Shown: in pieces, positions 1-49,930 of the stretch | Position numbering within the stretch: position 1 is the first letter of the stretch | How the letters are laid out: each line of letters opens with the position of its first letter | Source of the DNA: Lentisphaerota bacterium | GTDB lineage: Bacteria; Verrucomicrobiota; Kiritimatiellia; PWTM01 | Direction: 5' to 3' | Assembly: GCA_016873715.1 (NCBI GenBank) | Contig: VGWF01000015.1 | Coordinates: 1 to 49,930, forward strand | Length of the DNA stretch: 49,930 nucleotides | Translations under genes and position numbers: made by a program | The notes under the pieces: generated by a model | The model's input: the letters and a program-made list of their open reading frames with translations, nothing else | What the model was told of the DNA's origin: nothing | Database searches by the model: none

Positions 1-307
1 GGGGCGGGTTACGAATGACAGGGGCCGGCTGCACCATCATCGGAGACTCCCTGCGCCCGATTCCCCACGATCAACGGGATGCGCGATTACGAACATGGAG
101 ATGATACCCTTCATTCCGCCGAACGTCAGCGTTGAGGCTGAGGCGCGCCAGCGCCGATAGCCTCCGACGCTTGGTTCGGGATTCCCTTCTTCAGTTCCGC
201 CAGAAAGGCAGCGTCAAGGTTGTTGGTTCCTTTGACGGGCGTTTCAGCCCGTCTTTGGACTGCGGCAGCTTGACGCCGCTTTGGAGTGTTGCTCCGCATT
301 TGAATAA
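1..307. other. Gene-free stretch with stacked hairpins
   Basis: I see no convincing gene here; the short plus-strand reading frame has no ribosome binding site and no recognisable family. The right part holds three consecutive inverted repeats: GACGGGC/GCCCGTC at 234-240 and 247-253, GCGGC/GCCGC at 262-266 and 275-279, and GGAG/CTCC at 283-286 and 292-295. They lie just past the stop of the minus-strand gene at 308-745 and could act as its transcription end, although no T-run follows. Base composition is clearly less GC-rich than the rest of the window. Confidence 0.5.
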
Positions 308-745
308 TTACTGAACAAAGCTAAATCCCTCGAGTATCAAACCAAAGCGCCTGACTGAATCAGTCGTGTTTTCAGCTTGAAGGTAGGCCGTGCCCGTCCA
401 TCCCTTTTTGATGACCAGTGGAGCTTCCTTGAAACCTTCCTCAGATTTGCTGAGTTGTTCGTTGGTCATATAGCGCCTTCGTGATTTGATCACGATCTTG
501 TCGCCGTTCTTGACTCCACAGGCGCTACGCACAACCTTGGTAACCGTCGCTTCCATGAGCACATCCTTGAAATTGCCTGCAGTCTCTTCGAGATATACCT
601 TAGTCACCTCTAGCTGGAATGCCTCCTTAGCCTGCTCGTGCTTGCGCTCCGCTGTCCACGGAGCGGTGGCAGCATCAGTTCGTGGAGTCAACGAAATGAC
701 CGTGAGTGCGGCGACTGCGATTGCGATTGTGATAAGTGATTTCAT
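308..745 (-). CDS. Small exported protein of unknown function
   Basis: A 145-residue protein I do not recognise. The start at 745 is favoured over an in-frame codon 69 nt upstream because AAAGGAGAGGGT directly precedes this ATG and the protein then begins with a signal peptide (MKSLITIAIAVAALTVISLT, cleavage probably near the following Ala-rich stretch). The mature part is about 120 residues, with alternating hydrophobic strands (ATVTKVVRSACGV, DKIVIKSRRRYM, GLILEGFSFV) that suggest a small beta-barrel of OB-fold type; that fold is a guess. It has one cysteine. Composition is less GC-rich than neighbouring genes, so recent acquisition is possible. It stands alone, with a -10-like TAGAAT (minus strand, 774-779) upstream and hairpins downstream. 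Confidence 0.75.
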   Translation of the reverse strand: MKSLITIAIAVAALTVISLTPRTDAATAPWTAERKHEQAKEAFQLEVTKVYLEETAGNFKDVLMEATVTKVVRSACGVKNGDKIVIKSRRRYMTNEQLSKSEEGFKEAPLVIKKGWTGTAYLQAENTTDSVRRFGLILEGFSFVQ

Positions 746-5998: not shown

Positions 5999-6847
5999 TC
6001 AGGCAGGGGGGTCGGAGGCCGGGGATTCGCAGGTTCGCAGGTTCGCAGGTTCGGAGGTTCGAAGGTTCGAAGGTTCCGCAGTTGGTTGTTGGCTGTTGGA
6101 TATTGGATGTTGGTTGTTGGACGTCGGTTGCTGGATGTTGGTCTCCGCCCTTGGAGGTTCGGCGTTCGGTGTTCGATTTTCGGCGCTCGCAGTCTCCTCC
6201 TCGCCCTCCGCGGCGTCGGCGGACGCGTCGTCCTCCGCCTCCTCGTCGCGGACCTTCGACGACTTGCGGCGCGTGCGGAACAGGTCCATCTGCGCGCTGC
6301 GGAGCAGGCCGTAGGACTTGAGAATCCGCATCAGCTGCATCACGTCCGACTGGTCGTAGACGAAGTGCGACCGCACCATCCCGGACAGTTCGAGCAGGAT
6401 CGTCCGGAACGGCAGGACCCCGGCGATGCCGCTCTCGCGGATCATCCTCAGCGCCCGGCGCTGCAGGTCGAGCGACGCCGGAAGGCCCGGCAGGCACAGC
6501 ACGGGCGTCACCGTCTCGACGCCCAGCCGCCGGGCGGCCTCCTTCAGCACGTCGGGCGCGCCGATCCGCAGCACGTCGGGCGACGATTCCAGCGTCGACG
6601 GCGAGAACCGTTCCGTGTGCCAGCCGCGGATGCCGACGACCATCGCGCGCACGCGCCGCAGGTCGGCGCCGGTCCAGACGCCCGGATCGGGCGCCGCGCC
6701 GGTCGCATGGGGGTTCCATGCGAGCAGGTCGATCTCCTCGTCCGGCCGCTTCGCGCGTGCCACGACCTGGTACTTGCGCGGCTGGAGGACCGTGAACCCG
6801 AGCCCCTCCAGGTAATCGCGAACGATCGCCTCACTGACGGCAGACAT
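5999..6847 (-). CDS. Unknown protein, possible restriction-endonuclease-like fold, with repeat-encoded tail
   Basis: A 282-residue protein I cannot assign to a named family. The first 80 residues have the layout of a PD-(D/E)xK nuclease core: a helix (IVRDYLEGLGF), then EEIDLLAWNP, then a strand VVGIRGWH where active members would have ExK. The catalytic acid-x-lysine is thus not obvious, and activity is doubtful. Residues 100-200 look globular and helical. From about residue 215 the protein turns acidic and then becomes pure low-complexity (Q-Q-P-T-S-N-like), encoded by the octamer and heptamer tracts at 6029-6188. Those tracts probably invaded the 3' end of the gene. It overlaps the end of aroB by 17 nt and ends 9 nt before dprA. 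Confidence 0.7.
   Translation of the reverse strand: MSAVSEAIVRDYLEGLGFTVLQPRKYQVVARAKRPDEEIDLLAWNPHATGAAPDPGVWTGADLRRVRAMVVGIRGWHTERFSPSTLESSPDVLRIGAPDVLKEAARRLGVETVTPVLCLPGLPASLDLQRRALRMIRESGIAGVLPFRTILLELSGMVRSHFVYDQSDVMQLMRILKSYGLLRSAQMDLFRTRRKSSKVRDEEAEDDASADAAEGEEETASAENRTPNAEPPRAETNIQQPTSNNQHPISNSQQPTAEPSNLRTSEPANLRTCESPASDPPA
6029..6188 (-). repeat. Octamer and heptamer repeat tracts inside a coding 3' end
   Basis: Three consecutive short-period tracts. 6029-6076 is six 8-mers of consensus GNAGGTTC (second base C, C, C, G, A, A). 6081-6143 is nine 7-mers of consensus GTTGGNT. 6154-6188 is five 7-mers close to GGNGTTC. On the minus strand the second reads ANCCAAC and the third GAACNCC, the same two heptamer families found in the array at 48237-49860. 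One position in each unit varies freely while the rest is held. They encode the C-terminal tail of the gene at 5999-6847. Confidence 0.9.
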
Positions 6848-9647: not shown

Positions 9648-12140
9648 ATGAGCGACACCCTCACGCCGATGATGGCGCAGTACCGGCGCGTGCGCGCGGA
9701 CCTTCCGCCGGACACGATCCTCTTCTTCCACCTCGGCGACTTCTACGAGATGTTCTACGACGACGCCGTCGTCGCGGCGCCGATCCTCGACATCGCCCTC
9801 ACGAAGCGCCAGGCCATGCCGATGTGCGGCGTGCCCGTCCATGCGGCCGACTCCTACATCGCCCGCCTGATCCGCGCCGGGAAGAAGGTCGCCGTCTGCG
9901 AGCAGGTCGAGGATCCCTCCCAGGCGAAGGGCATCGTCCGCCGCGACGTCACCCGCATCGTGACCCCCGGCACCGTCGTCGAGGAGGGCATGCTCGACGC
10001 CCGCCTGAGCAACTACCTCGGCGGCCTCTGGCGCCGCGCCGATGCGTTCGGCCTCGCCATGCTCGAGCTCTCCACCGGCGCCTTCTGGGTCGAGGAGCGG
10101 CCCGATGCCGACAGCGTCCGCGAGTTGCTGGCGAAGTACGCGCCCACCGAGGTCATCGTTCCGCAGGAGCAGCGCGACGCGCTCCTCCCCGCCGCCGCCG
10201 CCGACGGCCGGATGGTCACGCCGGTCGACGACTGGCGCTTCGAACCCGAGGCCGCACGCGACGCGCTTCTGCGCCACTTCGGCGTCGTCTCGCTCGACGG
10301 GTTCGGCTGCGAGGGCCTGCCCGCGGGCGTCGGGGCCGCCGGCGCCGTGCTTCACTACGTGACGGTCGACCTCCGCCGTCCCGCCGGGCACATCCGCCGC
10401 CTCCAGGCCCGCAGCGCCTCGGACTTCGTGGTGCTCGACGAGGCCACCGTCGCCAACCTCGAGCTGGTCACGCCCCGCGGCGGCGGCGCGGGGCCGTGCC
10501 TGCTCAGGGTTGTCGACGCCACCTGCACGCCGATGGGCGGACGGCAGATCCGCGAATGGCTCGTCCGCCCGCTCGGCCGGCGCGACGCCATCGAGGCCCG
10601 CCACGAGGTCGTCGCCGCGCTCTGCGCCAACCGCGACGCGCTGCGCCGCCTGCGCGAGGCCCTCGGCGGCATCCGCGACCTCGAGCGGCTGGTCGCCCGC
10701 ATCAGCGCCGGCGGCGGCAATGCGCGCGACCTGCGCGCCGTCGCCCAGTCGCTGCAGCAGCTGCCCGCGGCGCGCGACGCGGCGGAGTCGCTCGCGGCCC
10801 CCCTCGCCCTCCGGCTCGCCGCGGAGATCCGGCCGCAACCGGCCCTGCTCGACCGCATCGACCGGACGATCGTCGACGAGCCCCCGATCTCCGTCCGCGA
10901 CGGCGGCATGATCCGCGCCGGCTGCCACGCGGAGCTGGACGAACTCCGCAACGCGGCCAGCTCCGGCCGCTCGTGGATCGCGTCCTTCCAGGCCGCCGAG
11001 CAGCAGCGCACGGGCATCAAGTCGCTGAAGATCCGCCACAACAAGATCTTCGGCTACTACATCGAGATCACGCGCAGCAACCTTCAGAGCGTGCCGCCGG
11101 AGTACATCCGCAAGCAGACGATGGCCAACGCGGAGCGGTTCATCACGCCGGAGCTCAAGGACTACGAGAACCGCATCCTCGGCGCCCAGGAGCGCGCCGT
11201 CGCGCTGGAATACGAGCTGTTCCTGGAGGTGCGAGGCGCCGTGCTGGAGCAGACCGACGCCCTCCTGCGCTCCGCCTCGGCCCTCGCCGCGCTCGACGCC
11301 CTCGCCTCGTTCGCCGACCGCGCCCTGGCGCTCGGCTACGCCCGGCCGGTCATGACCGACGGCGACACCCTCCGCATCCGCGACGGGCGCCATCCCGTGA
11401 TCGAGACGCTGCCCGAGGCCGAGCGGTTCGTCCCGAACGACACGCTCCTCGACGGCCGCGGGAACCAGCTCGCCATCATCACCGGCCCCAACATGGCCGG
11501 AAAGTCGACCTACATCCGGCAGGTCGCCCTGATCACGATCCTCGCCCACGCGGGCTCCTTCGTCCCCGCCGCCGAGGCCGAGGTCGGCGTCGTGGACCGC
11601 GTCTTCACCCGCATCGGCGCCTCCGACGACCTCGCCCGCGGCCGCAGCACCTTCATGGTCGAGATGCAGGAGACCGCCAGCATCCTGAACAACGCGACGC
11701 CCCGCAGCCTGATCGTCCTCGACGAGATCGGCCGCGGCACCAGCACCTTCGACGGCATCAGCCTCGCGTGGGCCGTCGCGGAGCACCTCCACAACCGCGC
11801 CTCGGTGAAGGCCAAGACGCTCTTCGCGACGCACTATCACGAGCTGACCGACCTGGCCCTGACCCTGCCGGGGGTGAAGAACTACAACGTCCTCATCCGC
11901 GAAAGCGGCCAGCGGATCGCGTTCCTGCGCAAGATCGTGCCCGGCGCCGCGGACAAGAGCTACGGCATCCACGTCGCCCGCCTCGCCGGCATGCCCGACG
12001 AGGTCATCGACCGCGCGCGCGAGATCCTCTCGAACCTCGAGGAGGGCGAGTTCGGCGAGGCCGGCCAGCCCAAGATCGCCCGCACCCGCCCCTCCCGCCG
12101 CGGCCGCGACGACGGCGGCGCGCAGATGTCGCTGTTCTGA
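9648..12140 (+). CDS. mutS: DNA mismatch repair ATPase MutS
   Basis: An 830-residue MutS that recognises base mismatches and small loops and starts mismatch repair. The N-terminal mismatch-binding domain has the GDFYEMF signature (Phe-x-Glu wedge) near residue 25. The connector, lever and clamp domains follow. The C-terminal ATPase has Walker A GPNMAGKSTY near residue 613, Walker B LIVLDEIGRGTSTFDG near 690, and ATHYHEL. Length is typical of MutS1. No mutL is in the window. It sits 42 nt downstream of the zinc-ribbon gene. Confidence 0.97.
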   Translation: MSDTLTPMMAQYRRVRADLPPDTILFFHLGDFYEMFYDDAVVAAPILDIALTKRQAMPMCGVPVHAADSYIARLIRAGKKVAVCEQVEDPSQAKGIVRRDVTRIVTPGTVVEEGMLDARLSNYLGGLWRRADAFGLAMLELSTGAFWVEERPDADSVRELLAKYAPTEVIVPQEQRDALLPAAAADGRMVTPVDDWRFEPEAARDALLRHFGVVSLDGFGCEGLPAGVGAAGAVLHYVTVDLRRPAGHIRRLQARSASDFVVLDEATVANLELVTPRGGGAGPCLLRVVDATCTPMGGRQIREWLVRPLGRRDAIEARHEVVAALCANRDALRRLREALGGIRDLERLVARISAGGGNARDLRAVAQSLQQLPAARDAAESLAAPLALRLAAEIRPQPALLDRIDRTIVDEPPISVRDGGMIRAGCHAELDELRNAASSGRSWIASFQAAEQQRTGIKSLKIRHNKIFGYYIEITRSNLQSVPPEYIRKQTMANAERFITPELKDYENRILGAQERAVALEYELFLEVRGAVLEQTDALLRSASALAALDALASFADRALALGYARPVMTDGDTLRIRDGRHPVIETLPEAERFVPNDTLLDGRGNQLAIITGPNMAGKSTYIRQVALITILAHAGSFVPAAEAEVGVVDRVFTRIGASDDLARGRSTFMVEMQETASILNNATPRSLIVLDEIGRGTSTFDGISLAWAVAEHLHNRASVKAKTLFATHYHELTDLALTLPGVKNYNVLIRESGQRIAFLRKIVPGAADKSYGIHVARLAGMPDEVIDRAREILSNLEEGEFGEAGQPKIARTRPSRRGRDDGGAQMSLF

Positions 12141-12236
12141 AGGCCTGTCCAACCGCACCGTCCCGCCGGAAGATGGATCGGACGCAGCGCAGCCGTACAG
12201 GTGAAAGGGCTCATACCGTGTCGGATTCCCGTCCCT

Positions 12237-12278
12237 GATCGTAATCGCAATCCCAAGCGCAACCGTGATCGCAATCGC
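12237..12278. repeat. Hexamer tract, left of the four-helix-bundle remnant
   Basis: Seven degenerate 6-mers related to (G/A)ATCG(C/T), reading GATCGT AATCGC AATCCC and so on. The reverse complement of this pattern (GATTAC/GATTAG units) forms the tract at 12543-12580 on the other side of the small gene, so the two tracts are inverted with respect to each other. Confidence 0.75.
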
Positions 12279-12289
12279 CCCCCGGGGGC

Positions 12290-12318
12290 TTGCCCCCCAC
12301 CTCCCGGCTCACTACATT
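12290..12318 (+). promoter_or_regulatory. Promoter of the four-helix-bundle remnant
   Basis: TTGCCC (12290-12295), 17-bp spacer, TACATT (12313-12318), ending 7 nt before the ATG at 12326. It looks intact although the gene is broken. Confidence 0.5.
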
Positions 12319-12325
12319 GCTCCCC

Positions 12326-12556
12326 ATGACGACGTGCTTCGAGCACGAGAAGCTGGACGTGTACCAGGACGCCATCCGCTTCGCCTCCCGGGTCGATGCC
12401 CTGTTGAAAGGCGTGGATTCCGGCACGGCGGTGCTGGTGCGGATCGTCCCGACGCTCGTGGGCCTCGTGCGCAGCACGTCGCCCCATCGGGTTCACGAGG
12501 GCCCGGCGGAATGCACCATGCGTCAGGCCGGGGCCGGCGGAGGCGATTACGATTAG
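12326..12556 (+). pseudogene. Internally deleted four-helix-bundle (23S IVP / Avd-like) gene
   Basis: A 76-codon frame. Its start (CFEHEKLDVYQDAIRFASRV) is the characteristic beginning of the S23/IVP four-helix-bundle family. It then jumps to LVRIVPTLVGLVRSTS followed by RVHEGPAE, which resembles the last helix of the same family. Intact members are about 115-130 residues, so roughly 65 residues of the middle helices appear to be deleted in frame. The tail runs into the hexamer tract (DYD, then TAG, then DYDHEQ if read through). Family members are associated with rRNA intervening sequences and, as Avd, with diversity-generating retroelements; no reverse transcriptase is nearby. Family recognition is from memory of the motif. 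Confidence 0.7.
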
Positions 12557-12580
12557 GATTACGATCACGAGCAGGATCGG
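12543..12580. repeat. Hexamer tract, right of the four-helix-bundle remnant
   Basis: Units GATTAC GATTAG GATTAC GATCAC GAGCAG GATCGG, inverted relative to the tract at 12237-12278. Together the two tracts enclose the remnant gene like imperfect inverted ends. The ORF stop (TAG, 12554-12556) falls inside the tract. Confidence 0.75.
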
Positions 12581-12614
12581 GAGTTGACCGCACACCGAGC
12601 ACCCGAGGTTCCCC

Positions 12615-13463
12615 ATGACCATCATCGAACCCCACATCCACATGTACTCCCGCACGACGGACGACTACACCGCGATGTACCGCGAGGGCATCCGGTGCGT
12701 CGTCGAACCGTCGTTCTGGCTCGGCTCGACGCGTCGCTTCGCCGGGACGTTCTGGGACTACTTCCAGCTCAGCCTTGATTTCGAGGTGAAGCGCTCGGAA
12801 CGCTACGGCATCGACCATTTCTCCTGCGTCGCCGTGAACCCGAAGGAGGCCGAGGATCTCGCGCTGGCGAGGGAGACGCTGGCCGGCATGGGCCCCTACC
12901 TCGATCACCCGCGCTGCGTCGCGATCGGCGAGATCGGCTTCAACCGCATCACGCCGAACGAGGAGGAGGTCTTCCAGCTTCAACTCGAGATGGCGAAGAC
13001 GCGCGGCATGCTGGTCCTCATCCACACGCCGCACGACACGCCCGAGGTCAGCAAGCGAAAGGGCGTCGAGCGCACGCTCGCCATCCTGCGGGAGCTGAAC
13101 TACGACAGCGCGCGGATCATCGTCGACCACAACACCGAGGACACGATGGATCTCACCCGCAAGACCGACGTCTGGGCGGGCATGACCGTCTACCCCTATT
13201 CCAAGCTGAACCCCGAGCGTGTCGTCAACCTGCTCAGGCGTTGGGGACTCGACCGCGTCCTCGTGAACAGCTCCGCCGACTGGGGCGTGTCCGACCCCTG
13301 CTCGCTCCCGAAGGCCGCGCGCCACATGAAGGCGAGCGGCTTCCCCGACGCGCAGGTGCAGAAGGTGATGTTCGACAACCCCCTCGCCTTCTACGGCCAG
13401 TGCCCCAAGTTCAAGCCGCGCCTCGACCTGCCCTGGCAGGATCCGGCGCAATACCAGCGGTAA
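12615..13463 (+). CDS. eboB: TatD-family metal hydrolase, EboB type
   Basis: A 282-residue amidohydrolase-like TIM barrel. Metal ligands are visible in EPHIHMYSR at the N-terminus, a Glu in CVAIGEIGFNR, His in VLIHTPH and IIVDHN, and an Asp in NSSADWGVSDP. The sequence, especially PHIHMYSRTTDDY and VVEPSFWLG, matches what I know of EboB from the ebo (edge biosynthesis organisation) cluster rather than generic TatD nucleases. That cluster is linked in cyanobacteria and other bacteria to export of an isoprenoid-like precursor. The stop is followed after 1 nt by the UbiA-like gene, which fits EboC. GAGG lies 6 nt before the ATG. Confidence 0.85.
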   Translation: MTIIEPHIHMYSRTTDDYTAMYREGIRCVVEPSFWLGSTRRFAGTFWDYFQLSLDFEVKRSERYGIDHFSCVAVNPKEAEDLALARETLAGMGPYLDHPRCVAIGEIGFNRITPNEEEVFQLQLEMAKTRGMLVLIHTPHDTPEVSKRKGVERTLAILRELNYDSARIIVDHNTEDTMDLTRKTDVWAGMTVYPYSKLNPERVVNLLRRWGLDRVLVNSSADWGVSDPCSLPKAARHMKASGFPDAQVQKVMFDNPLAFYGQCPKFKPRLDLPWQDPAQYQR

Positions 13464-37774: not shown

Positions 37775-38968
37775 ATGAGCGATGCGATCCGCGGGTTTAT
37801 CGAAGCGTGCCGCGCAGCCCTCGCGGCCGGCACGTGGGCGAAGCTGACGCTCGGCGCGCACCGCGGCGCGGACGCGACGCTGCGGAACGTCATCGTGCAG
37901 CCCGTCGCCCTGCGGTCCGGCGACCGCCTCTCGTTCGTGTACCGTCACGCCACGCGGGATGTGACGAAGAACCTCCCCCCCGGGGAGGGACTCGCGCGGG
38001 TCTCCGAACTCCTCGCGACGGACTTCGGCGGCGCCCACCTCTTCACCACCGAGGCCGAGATCGAACTGCAGCCCGCACGGGGCCGGTCGGCGGCGCGCGT
38101 CATCCGCCGCCCCCCGCGCCACGACGCGCCGGCCCCGGACACGCACGACCACGCCCGGGTGCGGCCCATCGATCCCGCCGGCGCGGCGTGGCTGCGCACG
38201 CTCGGCGTCGTCAACGCCGCCGGCCGCCCCCGCGACGGCATGTCGGGGAAGCTCCGGCAGATCGAGAAGTTCGCGGAGATCCTGCTCCACCATGTCGCGG
38301 AGATCCCGCCGCGCGGCGACCGCTCGCTCGCGGTCGTCGACATGGGCTGCGGCAAGGGCTACCTCACGTTCGCCGCCTTCGAGGTCCTCCACTCGGCCGG
38401 CTGGACCCCGCTCCGCGTCACGGGCGTCGAGCGCCGCGCGGACCTGGTCGACGCCTGCAACCGGGCCGCGGCGGAGCACGGCCTCGACGGACTGGCCTTC
38501 ACCCGGGGAGACGTCGCATCGACGCCGCTCGACCGGGCCGACATCCTCGTCGCCCTCCACGCCTGCGACACGGCCACCGACGACGCGCTGGCCAAGGGAA
38601 TCGCCGCCGGCGCCTCGCTGATCCTCGCCTCCCCCTGCTGCCACAAGGAGGTGCGCCGCGGCCTCCGCCCTCCCGCGATTCTCGATCCGGCCCTGCGGCA
38701 CGGGATCCTGCTCGACCGCCACGCGGAACTCGTGACCGACGCCGTGCGCGCATCGCTCCTCGAGTGGGCGGGATACGATGTGAAGGTCTTCGAGTTCGTC
38801 TCGACCGAGCACACGGCCAAGAATCTCATGATCGCCGCCGTCCGCCGTCCCGGCCCCGCCCGCACCGACGCGGCCGCCCACGCGATCCGCGATTTCGCCG
38901 CCTTCCACGGCCTTCGGCGCCAGCGCCTCGCGGAGCATCTCGGATTCACGCTGGACCCGGCCCCGTGA
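37775..38968 (+). CDS. SAM-dependent methyltransferase (METTL25/GSTCD-like domain)
   Basis: A 397-residue protein. An N-terminal domain (1-140) precedes a Rossmann-fold methyltransferase with the SAM motif VVDMGCGKGYLTFAAFEVL near residue 190. A later signature HACDTATDDALAKGI and SPCCHKEVR near 270-290 is typical of the group that includes METTL25 and bacterial rRNA/tRNA-methyltransferase-like proteins. The substrate is unknown, perhaps RNA. The start at 37775 is 7 nt after TAAGAT and no Shine-Dalgarno is seen, consistent with a leaderless message. It converges on the ACT gene, with a tandem repeat between. Confidence 0.85.
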   Translation: MSDAIRGFIEACRAALAAGTWAKLTLGAHRGADATLRNVIVQPVALRSGDRLSFVYRHATRDVTKNLPPGEGLARVSELLATDFGGAHLFTTEAEIELQPARGRSAARVIRRPPRHDAPAPDTHDHARVRPIDPAGAAWLRTLGVVNAAGRPRDGMSGKLRQIEKFAEILLHHVAEIPPRGDRSLAVVDMGCGKGYLTFAAFEVLHSAGWTPLRVTGVERRADLVDACNRAAAEHGLDGLAFTRGDVASTPLDRADILVALHACDTATDDALAKGIAAGASLILASPCCHKEVRRGLRPPAILDPALRHGILLDRHAELVTDAVRASLLEWAGYDVKVFEFVSTEHTAKNLMIAAVRRPGPARTDAAAHAIRDFAAFHGLRRQRLAEHLGFTLDPAP

Positions 38969-39197
38969 CGGACGGGGGGAGACGCACCCGAAGCGGCGTT
39001 CCTTCGCGGGCCCCGTTCACGGCCGCGGTGGCACGCGGCCCGCCCGATCCTCTTCCGGAGCAAGGAAGGTACGCCCACGGACGGTGGGAGGCACCCGAAG
39101 CGGTGTTGCTTCGCGGGCTCCGTTCACGGCCGCGGTGGAACGCGGCCCGCCCGATCCTGTTCCGGAGCAAGGAAGGTCCGCCCACGGACGGTGGACG
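38969..39197. repeat. Tandem repeat, 107-bp period, two copies
   Basis: The unit beginning GCACCCGAAGCGG at 38984 repeats at 39091, about 95 percent identical by eye, and ends with CGCCCACGGACGGTGG; a third copy begins at about 39189 and breaks off. The unit includes an inverted pair GGCCGCG/CGCGGCC. It lies wholly between convergent genes. Confidence 0.85.
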
Positions 39198-39204
39198 CCA
39201 GCCG

Positions 39205-39262
39205 TTCCGCCGTCCCTCCCTCGCCCCCCGCCCCTCGTCCCTCGTCCCCCGCCCCTCGTCCT
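39205..39262. repeat. Pyrimidine-rich heptamer tract
   Basis: A run of 7-mers related to CCCTCGT and CCCCCGC directly after the 107-bp repeats. The same kind of tract (CCCTCGC units) is a module of the array at 48309-49930. Confidence 0.7.
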
Positions 39263-48145: not shown

Positions 48146-48240
48146 GCCCGCGCCGCATTCCGCCGCCCCGGTGGAGGATGACAACCGAATGGGGACAACC
48201 GAATGGGCGCGAGGCGCGAACACCGACGTTCGGACTCAAC

Positions 48241-48275
48241 ACCCAACAACCAACAGCCAACAACCAACACCCAAC
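48241..48275. repeat. ANCCAAC heptamer tract, five units
   Basis: ACCCAAC AACCAAC AGCCAAC and two more; the second base is C, A, G, A, C while the other six are fixed. Further tracts of the same heptamer are at 48735-48783 (seven units), 48975-49002 (four), 49428-49434 (one), 49654-49674 (three) and 49852-49858 (one). Confidence 0.9.
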
Positions 48276-48413
48276 GCGGAAAACGAGGAAGGCCGCGAGG
48301 AAGAGACCGACACTCGACACCTGCCACTCGACACCGTTTTCCCTCGCCCCCCGACCCTCGCCCCTTTCCGGGTGCGAACTACCGCGAGCCCGAACGCAGG
48401 ATCCCGGGACGCA

Positions 48414-48730
48414 CTCCCCGGCCTCGCAGTAGCTCGGCCCTCCATTGGTTGGCTATGGAGTTCTGGCTGTCGGGTGTTTGACGTTGAATCCCGCCGCCCT
48501 GGCCGGAGGATGACAACCGAATGGGGACAACCGAATGGAAACGGGCAATAAACACCGAACACCGAACGCCGGACGCTTTCAGGTTTCAGGTTTCCGCCCT
48601 CATCCTTCCTGTCTCCGCGCCCTGGAGGGGCGAGCTACCGCGAGCCCGAACGCAGGATCCCGTTACCCTCCCGCCGGCCTCGCAGTAGCTCGGCCCTCCA
48701 GCACAGGAAGAGGGACGAGGGGCGGGGATC
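48414..48730. repeat. 317-bp duplicated block, copy 1
   Basis: Repeated at 49108-49424 (offset 694) with a single visible difference (G at 48448, T at 49142). It contains a partial inverted-repeat element, the CAACCGAATGG pair, the GAACACC/GAACGCC and TTTCAGG heptamers, and a full inverted-repeat element. Confidence 0.9.
48623..48700. repeat. Inverted-repeat element of the array, best full copy
   Basis: Begins CTGGAGGGGCGAGCTACCGC and ends with CTCGCAGTAGCTCGGCCCTCCAG; the two ends pair over about 23 bp with few mismatches around a core containing GAACGCAGGATCCCGTTACC. Other full copies lie near 48370-48443, 48866-48942, 49315-49394 and 49530-49603. Two copies (49097-49138 and 49771-49811) lack the left arm and core, so they keep only the right arm. 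Confidence 0.85.
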
Positions 48731-49107
48731 ACAACCCCAACAACCAACAGCCAACAACCAACAGCCAACAACCAACATCCAACGGCGAATAGCGAGGAAG
48801 AGGCCGACACTCGACACCTGCCACTCGAAACCGCCCTCCCTCGCCCCCCGACCCTCGCCCCTTTCCGGGTGCGAACTACCGCGAGCCCGAACACAGGATC
48901 CCGTTACCCTCCCCCCGGCCTCGCAGTAGCTCGGCCCTCCATCACACGAAGAGGGACGAGGGGCGGGGATCAACAGCCAACAACCAACAGCCAACATCCA
49001 ACGCGGAAGACGAGGAAGGCCGCGAGGAAGAGACCGACACCCGACACCTGCCGCTCGACACCGTCCTCCCTCGCCCCCCGACCCTCGCCCCTTTCCGGCT
49101 GCGAGCC

Positions 49108-49424
49108 CTCCCCGGCCTCGCAGTAGCTCGGCCCTCCATTGTTTGGCTATGGAGTTCTGGCTGTCGGGTGTTTGACGTTGAATCCCGCCGCCCTGGCCGG
49201 AGGATGACAACCGAATGGGGACAACCGAATGGAAACGGGCAATAAACACCGAACACCGAACGCCGGACGCTTTCAGGTTTCAGGTTTCCGCCCTCATCCT
49301 TCCTGTCTCCGCGCCCTGGAGGGGCGAGCTACCGCGAGCCCGAACGCAGGATCCCGTTACCCTCCCGCCGGCCTCGCAGTAGCTCGGCCCTCCAGCACAG
49401 GAAGAGGGACGAGGGGCGGGGATC
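49108..49424. repeat. 317-bp duplicated block, copy 2
   Basis: Second copy of 48414-48730, identical but for one base. Near-identity over the whole block points to recent duplication or gene conversion. Confidence 0.9.
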
Positions 49425-49930
49425 AACATCCAACGGCGGAAGACGAGGAAGGCCGCGAGGAAGAGACCGACACCCGACACCTGCCACTCGACACCGTTTT
49501 CCCTCGCCCCCCGACCCTCGCCCCTTTCCGGGGGCGAGCTACCGCGAGCCCGAACGCAGGATCCCGTTACCCTCCCCCCGGCCTCGCAGTAGCTCGGCCC
49601 TCCATCACAGGAAGAGGGACGAGGGACGAGGGACGAGAGGCGGGGATCACAACACCCAACAACCAACAGCCAACGGCGGAAGACGAGGAAGGCCGCGAGG
49701 AAGAGACCGACACTCGACACCGGCCACTCGACACCGTTCTCCCTCGACCCCCGACCCTCGCCCCTTTCCGGCGGCGAGCCCTCCCCGGCCTCGCAGTAGC
49801 TCGGCCCTCCAGCACAGGAAGAGGGACGAGGGACGAGGGACGGGGATCAACATCCAACGGCGGAAGACGAGGAAGGCCGCGAGGAAGAGGCCGACACTCG
49901 ACACCTGCCACTCGACACCGCTCTCCCTCG

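Follow-up and report, generated by a model that had tools for sequence, protein, structure and literature searches.

Inverted short-unit arrays around Avd-like four-helix-bundle genes, and a decayed copy beside mutS in a Lentisphaerota genome

Between two genes of a Lentisphaerota bacterium lies a short open reading frame (ORF) bordered on both sides by mirrored tracts of hexamers, and the question this locus raises is whether gene and repeats belong together or met there by chance. We analysed the 49,930-nucleotide stretch that contains it (hereafter the window; contig C15 of a 5.1 Mb genome in 289 contigs, 97.6% complete), together with related loci in the same genome, its class and other bacteria (Table 1). 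The upstream neighbour is presumably mutS, judging by its sequence.

Table 1. Features of the window discussed in the text (positions counted from its first nucleotide).
Feature	Positions	Strand	Basis
Upstream neighbour, presumed mutS, stop at 12140	9648..12140	+	ORF list, name presumed from sequence
Gap of 474 bp between the mutS stop and the downstream ATG	12141..12614	+	Junction comparison with same-family genomes
Left arm, hexamer array (ATCGTA, ATCGCA and variant units)	12227..12279	+	Lag-6 match 0.68
Remnant ORF of the four-helix-bundle family (76 aa and a stop codon), shortened in frame by an internal deletion	12326..12556	+	Alignments to L112 and L120
Deletion junction, 193 nt lost and 4 nt present relative to L120	12411..12414	+	DNA alignment
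Right arm, hexamer array reverse-complementary to the left one, holds ORF 3' end	12541..12582	+	Lag-6 match 0.72
Downstream neighbour, TatD-like metal-dependent hydrolase, PF01026, ATG at 12615	12615..13463	+	ORF list, profile match
Array region without four-helix gene, units TTCGCAGG, GTTGGAT, GTTCGGT	6019..6190	+	Repeat scan
Gene-less mixed arrays, units CAACAAC, TTTCAGG, CCCTCGC	48180..49918	+	Repeat scan, arm comparison

The two arms, taken as 12227-12265 and 12544-12582, are 39 nt each and 72% reverse-complementary. Self-match at a lag of 6 nt reached 0.68 in 12236-12279 and 0.72 in 12541-12578, and at every other lag except 12 it was 0.34 or less. The arm pair gave a Smith-Waterman score of 33, equalled among 1982 equally spaced stretch pairs in the same window only near 48601, itself inside an array-rich region; as RNA the arms pair with a z of -2.5 (equally stable shuffles, 0/100). 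In profile searches of Pfam and NCBIfam the ORF matched no family at E<1, as expected with its core deleted. BLASTP against L112 aligned aa 1-36 of the ORF with aa 1-36 (50% identity) and aa 26-58 with aa 89-121 (58% identity), two collinear segments whose E values, 4e-10 and 5e-11, are valid for a single comparison. At the DNA level, 12303-12410 aligned to -22..+85 of L120 and 12415-12518 to 279..382, an exchange that kept the frame and left about 63 middle codons missing. Both L112 and L120 are intact genes from same-class genomes, and their arms carry the unit ATCGTA / ATCCTA as in the window. Given the two-block alignment and the common arm unit, the window locus is a defined element shortened by deletion with both arms retained, and its ORF descends by in-frame deletion from an Avd-like PF05635 (S23/IVP) four-helix-bundle gene. 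The first-pass annotation had described inverted hexamer tracts around a gene that keeps its first helix and last part, has lost its middle and ends inside the right array, and in all of this it was right (the stop codon lies at 12554-12556); the retained promoter that it also claimed did not appear, since the promoter and terminator scan of the locus was empty, with 0 promoter-like sites. The window's own genome held no second array of this hexamer, just two single decamers. Without its gene core, the window copy is probably an inactive relic.

We then compared the mutS / hydrolase junction with that of same-family genomes, where it measured 63 bp (L390), 62 bp (L392) and 20 bp (L397) and was free of arrays; the comparison covered the loci with a mutS anchor, five others having none and L389 being unparsable. 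From these bare sites, the inserted DNA probably spans about 12180-12235 to 12578-12590, borders that are approximate because the flanks of the bare sites are too diverged to align exactly. The empty-site orthologues expected of a mobile cassette are thus present, and that earlier idea fits both them and the gene-less copies described below; as to its other half, actual mobility, neither an event of transposition nor an enzyme nor a duplicated target was shown.

The case for an association had been made to depend on whether intact homologues are bordered in the same way, and it survived this comparison. Matched inverted flanking arrays (score of at least 30) were found at 133 of 195 intact loci versus 2 of 746 control intervals, which had equal length and flanks and lay 800-900 bp off in the same loci. 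The 195 loci come from this class and a set of named genomes and amount to 200 minus those with short or N-containing flanks (flanks with N were likewise kept out of the Mantel and unit-length comparisons); about one third (62/195) scored below 30. The named genomes alone, which include Flavobacterium, Acidobacteria, Planctomycetes, Clostridia and candidate-phyla bacteria, gave 49 of 79 loci at or above that score (manual count; 79 of the set of 80, L173 being too short). Manual counts from the scores, with no separate neighbour control, gave 33 of 38 genes in five Flavobacterium genomes (38 of their 46 PF05635 matches) and 26 of 29 in Xanthomonadaceae (29 newly taken loci among more numerous PF05635 matches). 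Ten more PF05635 loci lie in the window's own genome, and nearly all of them, by eye, sit between mirrored short tandem arrays whose motif is locus-specific. When the left arm of each of these 11 elements (the window's among them) was scored against all right arms, its own partner came first in 9; L002 was beaten once and L009 stood at background. A four-helix gene framed by inverted short-unit arrays is a real and recurrent unit, and the association is general rather than accidental. At one of these loci (L003, 1348-2772) the four-helix frame continues through the right array into pseudopilin-like sequence without a stop, possibly a fusion, the pseudopilin-like call resting on a prepilin motif seen by eye.

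Among 140 armed elements, the best unit length was 7 nt in 86 left and 89 right arms, 8 nt in 28 and 29, and 14-15 nt, i.e. two units, in 20 and 16; a length of 6 nt was rare (2 left, 2 right), and the two sides agreed in 113 elements. The arm strand that reads toward the gene is rich in G (0.37) and poor in C (0.14). The elements begin a median of 6 bp past the upstream stop and end 18 bp ahead of the next ATG. The four-helix gene and both its neighbours share one direction in 76 of 131 cases, and both neighbours oppose it in 14 of 131, strands being taken from longest open frames, a crude measure in GC-rich DNA. Shuffling the order of units lowered the arm score from 46 to 38, with a cross background of about 17; this test is biased because the arms had been picked by alignment. 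Pure base pairing as the sole source of the arm match was rejected on this moderate cost of shuffled unit order.

Each gene has its own motif, common to both arms and to close homologues, even across phyla. Over 88 elements of this class, the 4-mer content of the arms correlated with protein identity at a Mantel r of 0.35, the highest of 2000 permutations being 0.08. Cross-taxon pairs had an arm cosine of 0.09 below 50% protein identity, 0.32 at 60-70% (n = 35) and 0.61 at 70% or more (n = 4). Many close pairs differ in motif all the same (L083/L081: 78% protein identity, arm cosine 0.14), which indicates that motifs can switch. A pattern scan with a mixed-subfamily profile was unusable, the profile being too diverged.

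One element has been retained at a single locus across many Flavobacterium species, and its unit in 25 orthologues is roughly NNNC[A/T]RAG. The bracketed letter was mainly A in both arms of 13 orthologues and mainly T in both arms of 12; its fractions in left and right arms correlated at 0.97, while adjacent unit positions varied from unit to unit. L245 had mixed left units (A,T,A,T), T in its right units and a protein of the T clade. The gene is under purifying selection (dN/dS 0.10, from the 168 pairs out of 276 whose dS was usable, the set being taken without L246, where no ORF was found), and fixed protein differences between the A and T clades include aa 58, 60, 84 and 87. Since the letter follows the clade split, there may have been just one A/T switch, one that affected about eight units in two places. 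This concerted change speaks less for pure base pairing than for recognition of the unit core, most simply by the protein that the element encodes; slippage plus hairpin-templated repair is a possible route to it. A neutral account would give that route the leading part, with slippage making the arrays, hairpin-templated (quasipalindrome) correction keeping them matched and the gene a mere passenger. The arms are tandem repeats and gene-less hairpins are common, as this account would have it, and a Xanthomonadaceae genome (G215, below) has arrays and no gene. We nevertheless consider it improbable, in view of the contrast between family loci and their neighbouring intervals, of a motif that follows the protein across phyla, and of a unit core that is kept as adjacent positions vary, which pairing alone does not predict.

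At another Flavobacterium locus, that of L217, 50 junction sequences from 49 genomes (G067 twice, as L299 and L318) were compared; at this and the first Flavobacterium locus the junctions were a non-random choice among the matches listed. Three were bare (11 bp), eight held full-length elements and one a partial element. The others measured 60-173 bp and held no gene, mostly being heptamer-array hairpins of several unrelated motifs (GTTTCAA, AAAGTCT, GTTTAAA and others), with a different, C-rich hairpin in four genomes. The hairpin type CCCCCTAGCCCCCGAAGGGGG, free of any heptamer array, was seen in L299, L322, L324 and L325. Another sequence of this junction, L285 (G115), with 278 bp between anchors and the gene start missing, appears to have been shortened by an internal deletion of a different kind. 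The first Flavobacterium locus likewise had gene-less hairpins, and in two cases a different four-helix gene whose arms carry another motif. In two of the three genomes tested (G171 and G176), a cognate gene for the gene-less motif lies elsewhere in the genome; the third, G172, has a GTTTCAG hairpin and no cognate among its eight genes. Adjoining or nested arrays of two motifs, seen in L008 and L287/L288, suggest insertion into or beside older elements.

Such turnover bears on a reading in which nothing is selfish, the protein being a post-transcriptional host regulator that binds unit arrays in transcripts, the gene-less arrays its regulon and the arms a means of autoregulation. TRAP, a ring protein that binds tandem units, is the model for this. 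It would suit the intercistronic position and codirectional bias of the elements, the purifying selection on the gene, its mostly single-copy state in Xanthomonadaceae and the five chains of solved relatives. Several genes of different motif per genome speak against it, and the finding that one junction in close species is bare, gene-bearing or gene-less with unrelated motifs suits turnover better than a conserved regulon; on balance we think a host regulator unlikely.

A PF05635 gene was present in 64 of 149 Xanthomonadaceae genomes, usually one per genome, with arm motifs that include GGGACTC, GGGATTC, GGGACCC, GGGAATA and AGGGCTC (classes assigned by eye). The four genomes with a GGGACTC-armed gene carried 36-243 tandem copies of GGGACTC, and 30 copies or more were found in 4/4 cognate versus 3/25 other-motif genomes (Fisher p 0.0015), some of the non-cognate genomes having a second PF05635 gene beyond the one inspected. 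For GGGATTC the abundance was weaker (5/6 cognate vs 7/23 other-motif genomes; p 0.056). The control pattern, GGGACTC read backwards, coincides with the AGGGCTC unit; of this type G244, whose gene is armed with AGGGCTC, has 86 copies, and each of the other 38 genomes has 0. At least 10 copies of GGGACTC plus GGGATTC occurred in 20 of 29 gene-bearing genomes versus 2 of 10 gene-free genomes, the first ten listed (p 0.011). In this family, then, the arm motif of the gene tends to equal the dispersed heptamer of its genome. In the genome G215, 98 GGGACTC pairs occur although it lacks a PF05635 match; the stretches taken from it (L384-L386) show long one-sided GGGACTC arrays and no inverted pairs.

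The window has gene-less arrays too (Table 1). In the first of the two regions, the GTTGGAT part is the motif of the own-genome element L008, and the three units listed for the second resemble the arm motifs of L008, L006 and L005. Arms of L005, L006 and L008 matched gene-less window arrays at a normalised score of 0.68-0.79, whereas all 81 arms of other genomes scored 0.59 or less on the same arrays; the other five own-genome arms tested had no such match in the window. The second region looks like a graveyard of arrays with the motifs of own-genome elements. It is a complex satellite in which CAACAAC, TTTCAGG, GGACGAG and CGACACT heptamers alternate with a repeated hairpin-like block. Elsewhere, a 107-bp sequence is repeated twice in tandem (38968-39195, 92% match) beside a CCCTCGC array at 39217-39261. 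One genome can hold several PF05635 genes with different motifs, as the window's own genome and Flavobacterium do.

To place the protein, we compared a structural model of the family member L012 (pLDDT 95.7) with solved structures. It matches XCC0516 (2gsc), a four-helix bundle, at TM 0.91 and also BT_0352 (2rld), structures with five chains each, and the Avd of a phage diversity-generating retroelement (4dwl) at TM 0.79 with 14% sequence identity. The Avd-like fold that the first-pass annotation proposed is therefore upheld by the model. Its suggested link to such retroelements, whose accessory protein Avd (4dwl, 8ub7) has a like fold (TM about 0.79), found no partner in the window's own genome: a search for reverse transcriptase gave no RVT_1 match (0, in a genome 97.6% complete), and we rejected a retroelement accessory as almost certainly the wrong reading. 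The structures of S23/IVP four-helix proteins have been solved, and no function for them was found in the literature searched.

An S23 ORF between terminal inverted repeats has been described in rRNA. The excerpted account of the Coxiella burnetii intervening sequence (IVS) gives a 428-nt element with an S23 ORF and 28-bp terminal inverted repeats, excised by RNase III and called selfish; GACAGAT heptameric direct repeats ahead of the ATG are described apart from the inverted repeats (PMC4990558). As far as those excerpts go, the rRNA IVS and the present elements have in common their protein family, a size of about 0.43-0.5 kb, terminal inverted repeats around an S23 ORF and repeats of heptameric units. 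The IVS lies in rRNA, whereas the present elements lie between protein genes and, unlike it, occur several per genome with different motifs and gene-less relatives. The elements might still act only as RNA in the manner of an IVS, with RNase III excision silencing a harmful insertion and the motif merely reflecting descent. The Coxiella features and the pairing of the window arms as RNA point that way, but there was no Rfam match, rRNA included, in the window or in the ten own-genome loci L001-L010, and descent alone leaves the dispersed cognate arrays unexplained; we hold this to be quite unlikely.

A second system compared was REPIN-RAYT. In the excerpts at hand, a single-copy recognition gene is flanked by cognate repeats with which it coevolves, and REPINs are many gene-less hairpins of two inverted repeats (PMC3116915). 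A putative recognition gene amid cognate repeats, numerous gene-less hairpins, single gene copies and coevolution are the points of likeness. On the other side, RAYT is a Y1 (HUH) transposase and REPIN repeats are palindromes, whereas the protein here is an Avd-like four-helix bundle with no known active site and the repeats are tandem unit arrays. The element is thus REPIN-RAYT-like, yet no REPIN-RAYT, because its protein is no Y1 transposase. A gene flanked by the dispersed repeat of its own genome, as in REPIN systems, was seen for GGGACTC and AGGGCTC, more weakly for GGGATTC and not for the window hexamer.

Heptamer repeats have been described without such a gene. The excerpted text of PMC4692102 reports GGGNATC heptamers of Xanthomonas and Nostoc that are intergenic, mostly of four units and, per its authors, generally not associated with mobile elements, GGGAATC arrays forming 70 and 75 convergent inverted pairs in two Xanthomonas genomes. 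It further states that heptamer repeats are over-represented in bacteria, their source not being given, and the excerpts contain 0 hits for 'four helix' or '23S rRNA', the four-helix gene going unmentioned there. Going by this text, the unit type of the Xanthomonas repeats is identical to that of the Xanthomonadaceae arms. The TAACTGA heptamers of Beggiatoaceae, according to the portion of PMC4679880 consulted, are intergenic near start codons, with a patchy phylogeny and no evident mechanism; they are mostly direct sets, unlike the inverted arms here. No published link between the four-helix gene and heptamer arrays was found in titles and abstract starts outside subscription papers and preprints, which is a weak absence.

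The arms are matched within each element, differ between elements, track the protein, have changed in concert and also occur without the gene. We think these observations are best explained, with a probability of about 0.62, by a two-part system that resembles REPIN/RAYT, an Avd-like protein recognising the repeat unit of its own element, with the window locus as a decayed copy. The element would consist of an arm, the four-helix gene and the reverse-complement arm, about 0.5 kb in all, set between a stop and the next start codon. The protein may recognise its unit in DNA or RNA, perhaps with one unit per subunit of a five-chain ring; such recognition would hold both arms and the dispersed gene-less copies to one motif, and the bound ring would mark the element and its gene-less kin. 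Host enzymes would probably be required for movement, and at an RNA stage the paired arms would allow excision by RNase III, as reported for the rRNA intervening sequence. No catalytic residue or target duplication was seen, which counts against this two-part reading, and we infer recognition from the behaviour of the repeats. Also weighing against it are the intact loci below a score of 30, L009 among the own-genome elements, the possibly single A/T switch, the gene-free but array-rich G215, the GGGATTC abundance in non-cognate genomes and the G172 hairpin that lacks a cognate gene; slippage plus hairpin-templated repair could match arms with no help from the protein.

More tentatively, and at somewhat less than even odds, the elements could form a distinct class of mobile element, whose Avd-like protein reads tandem units of 6-8 nt as a code and spreads hairpins built from them, whose specificity is rewritten by protein-repeat coevolution, and whose footprint is the bacterial excess of heptamers. 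The rRNA intervening sequence would, on the best reading of the comparison above, be an already described special case of the wider family. If the two-part reading is true, the function of four-helix proteins and the origin of heptamer repeats, two open puzzles, would join; rRNA intervening sequences would fall within a much wider family; and the elements would offer a natural set of protein / repeat-unit pairs from which to read the recognition code. The findings point to an overlooked family of dispersing elements behind the short scattered repeats of bacteria.
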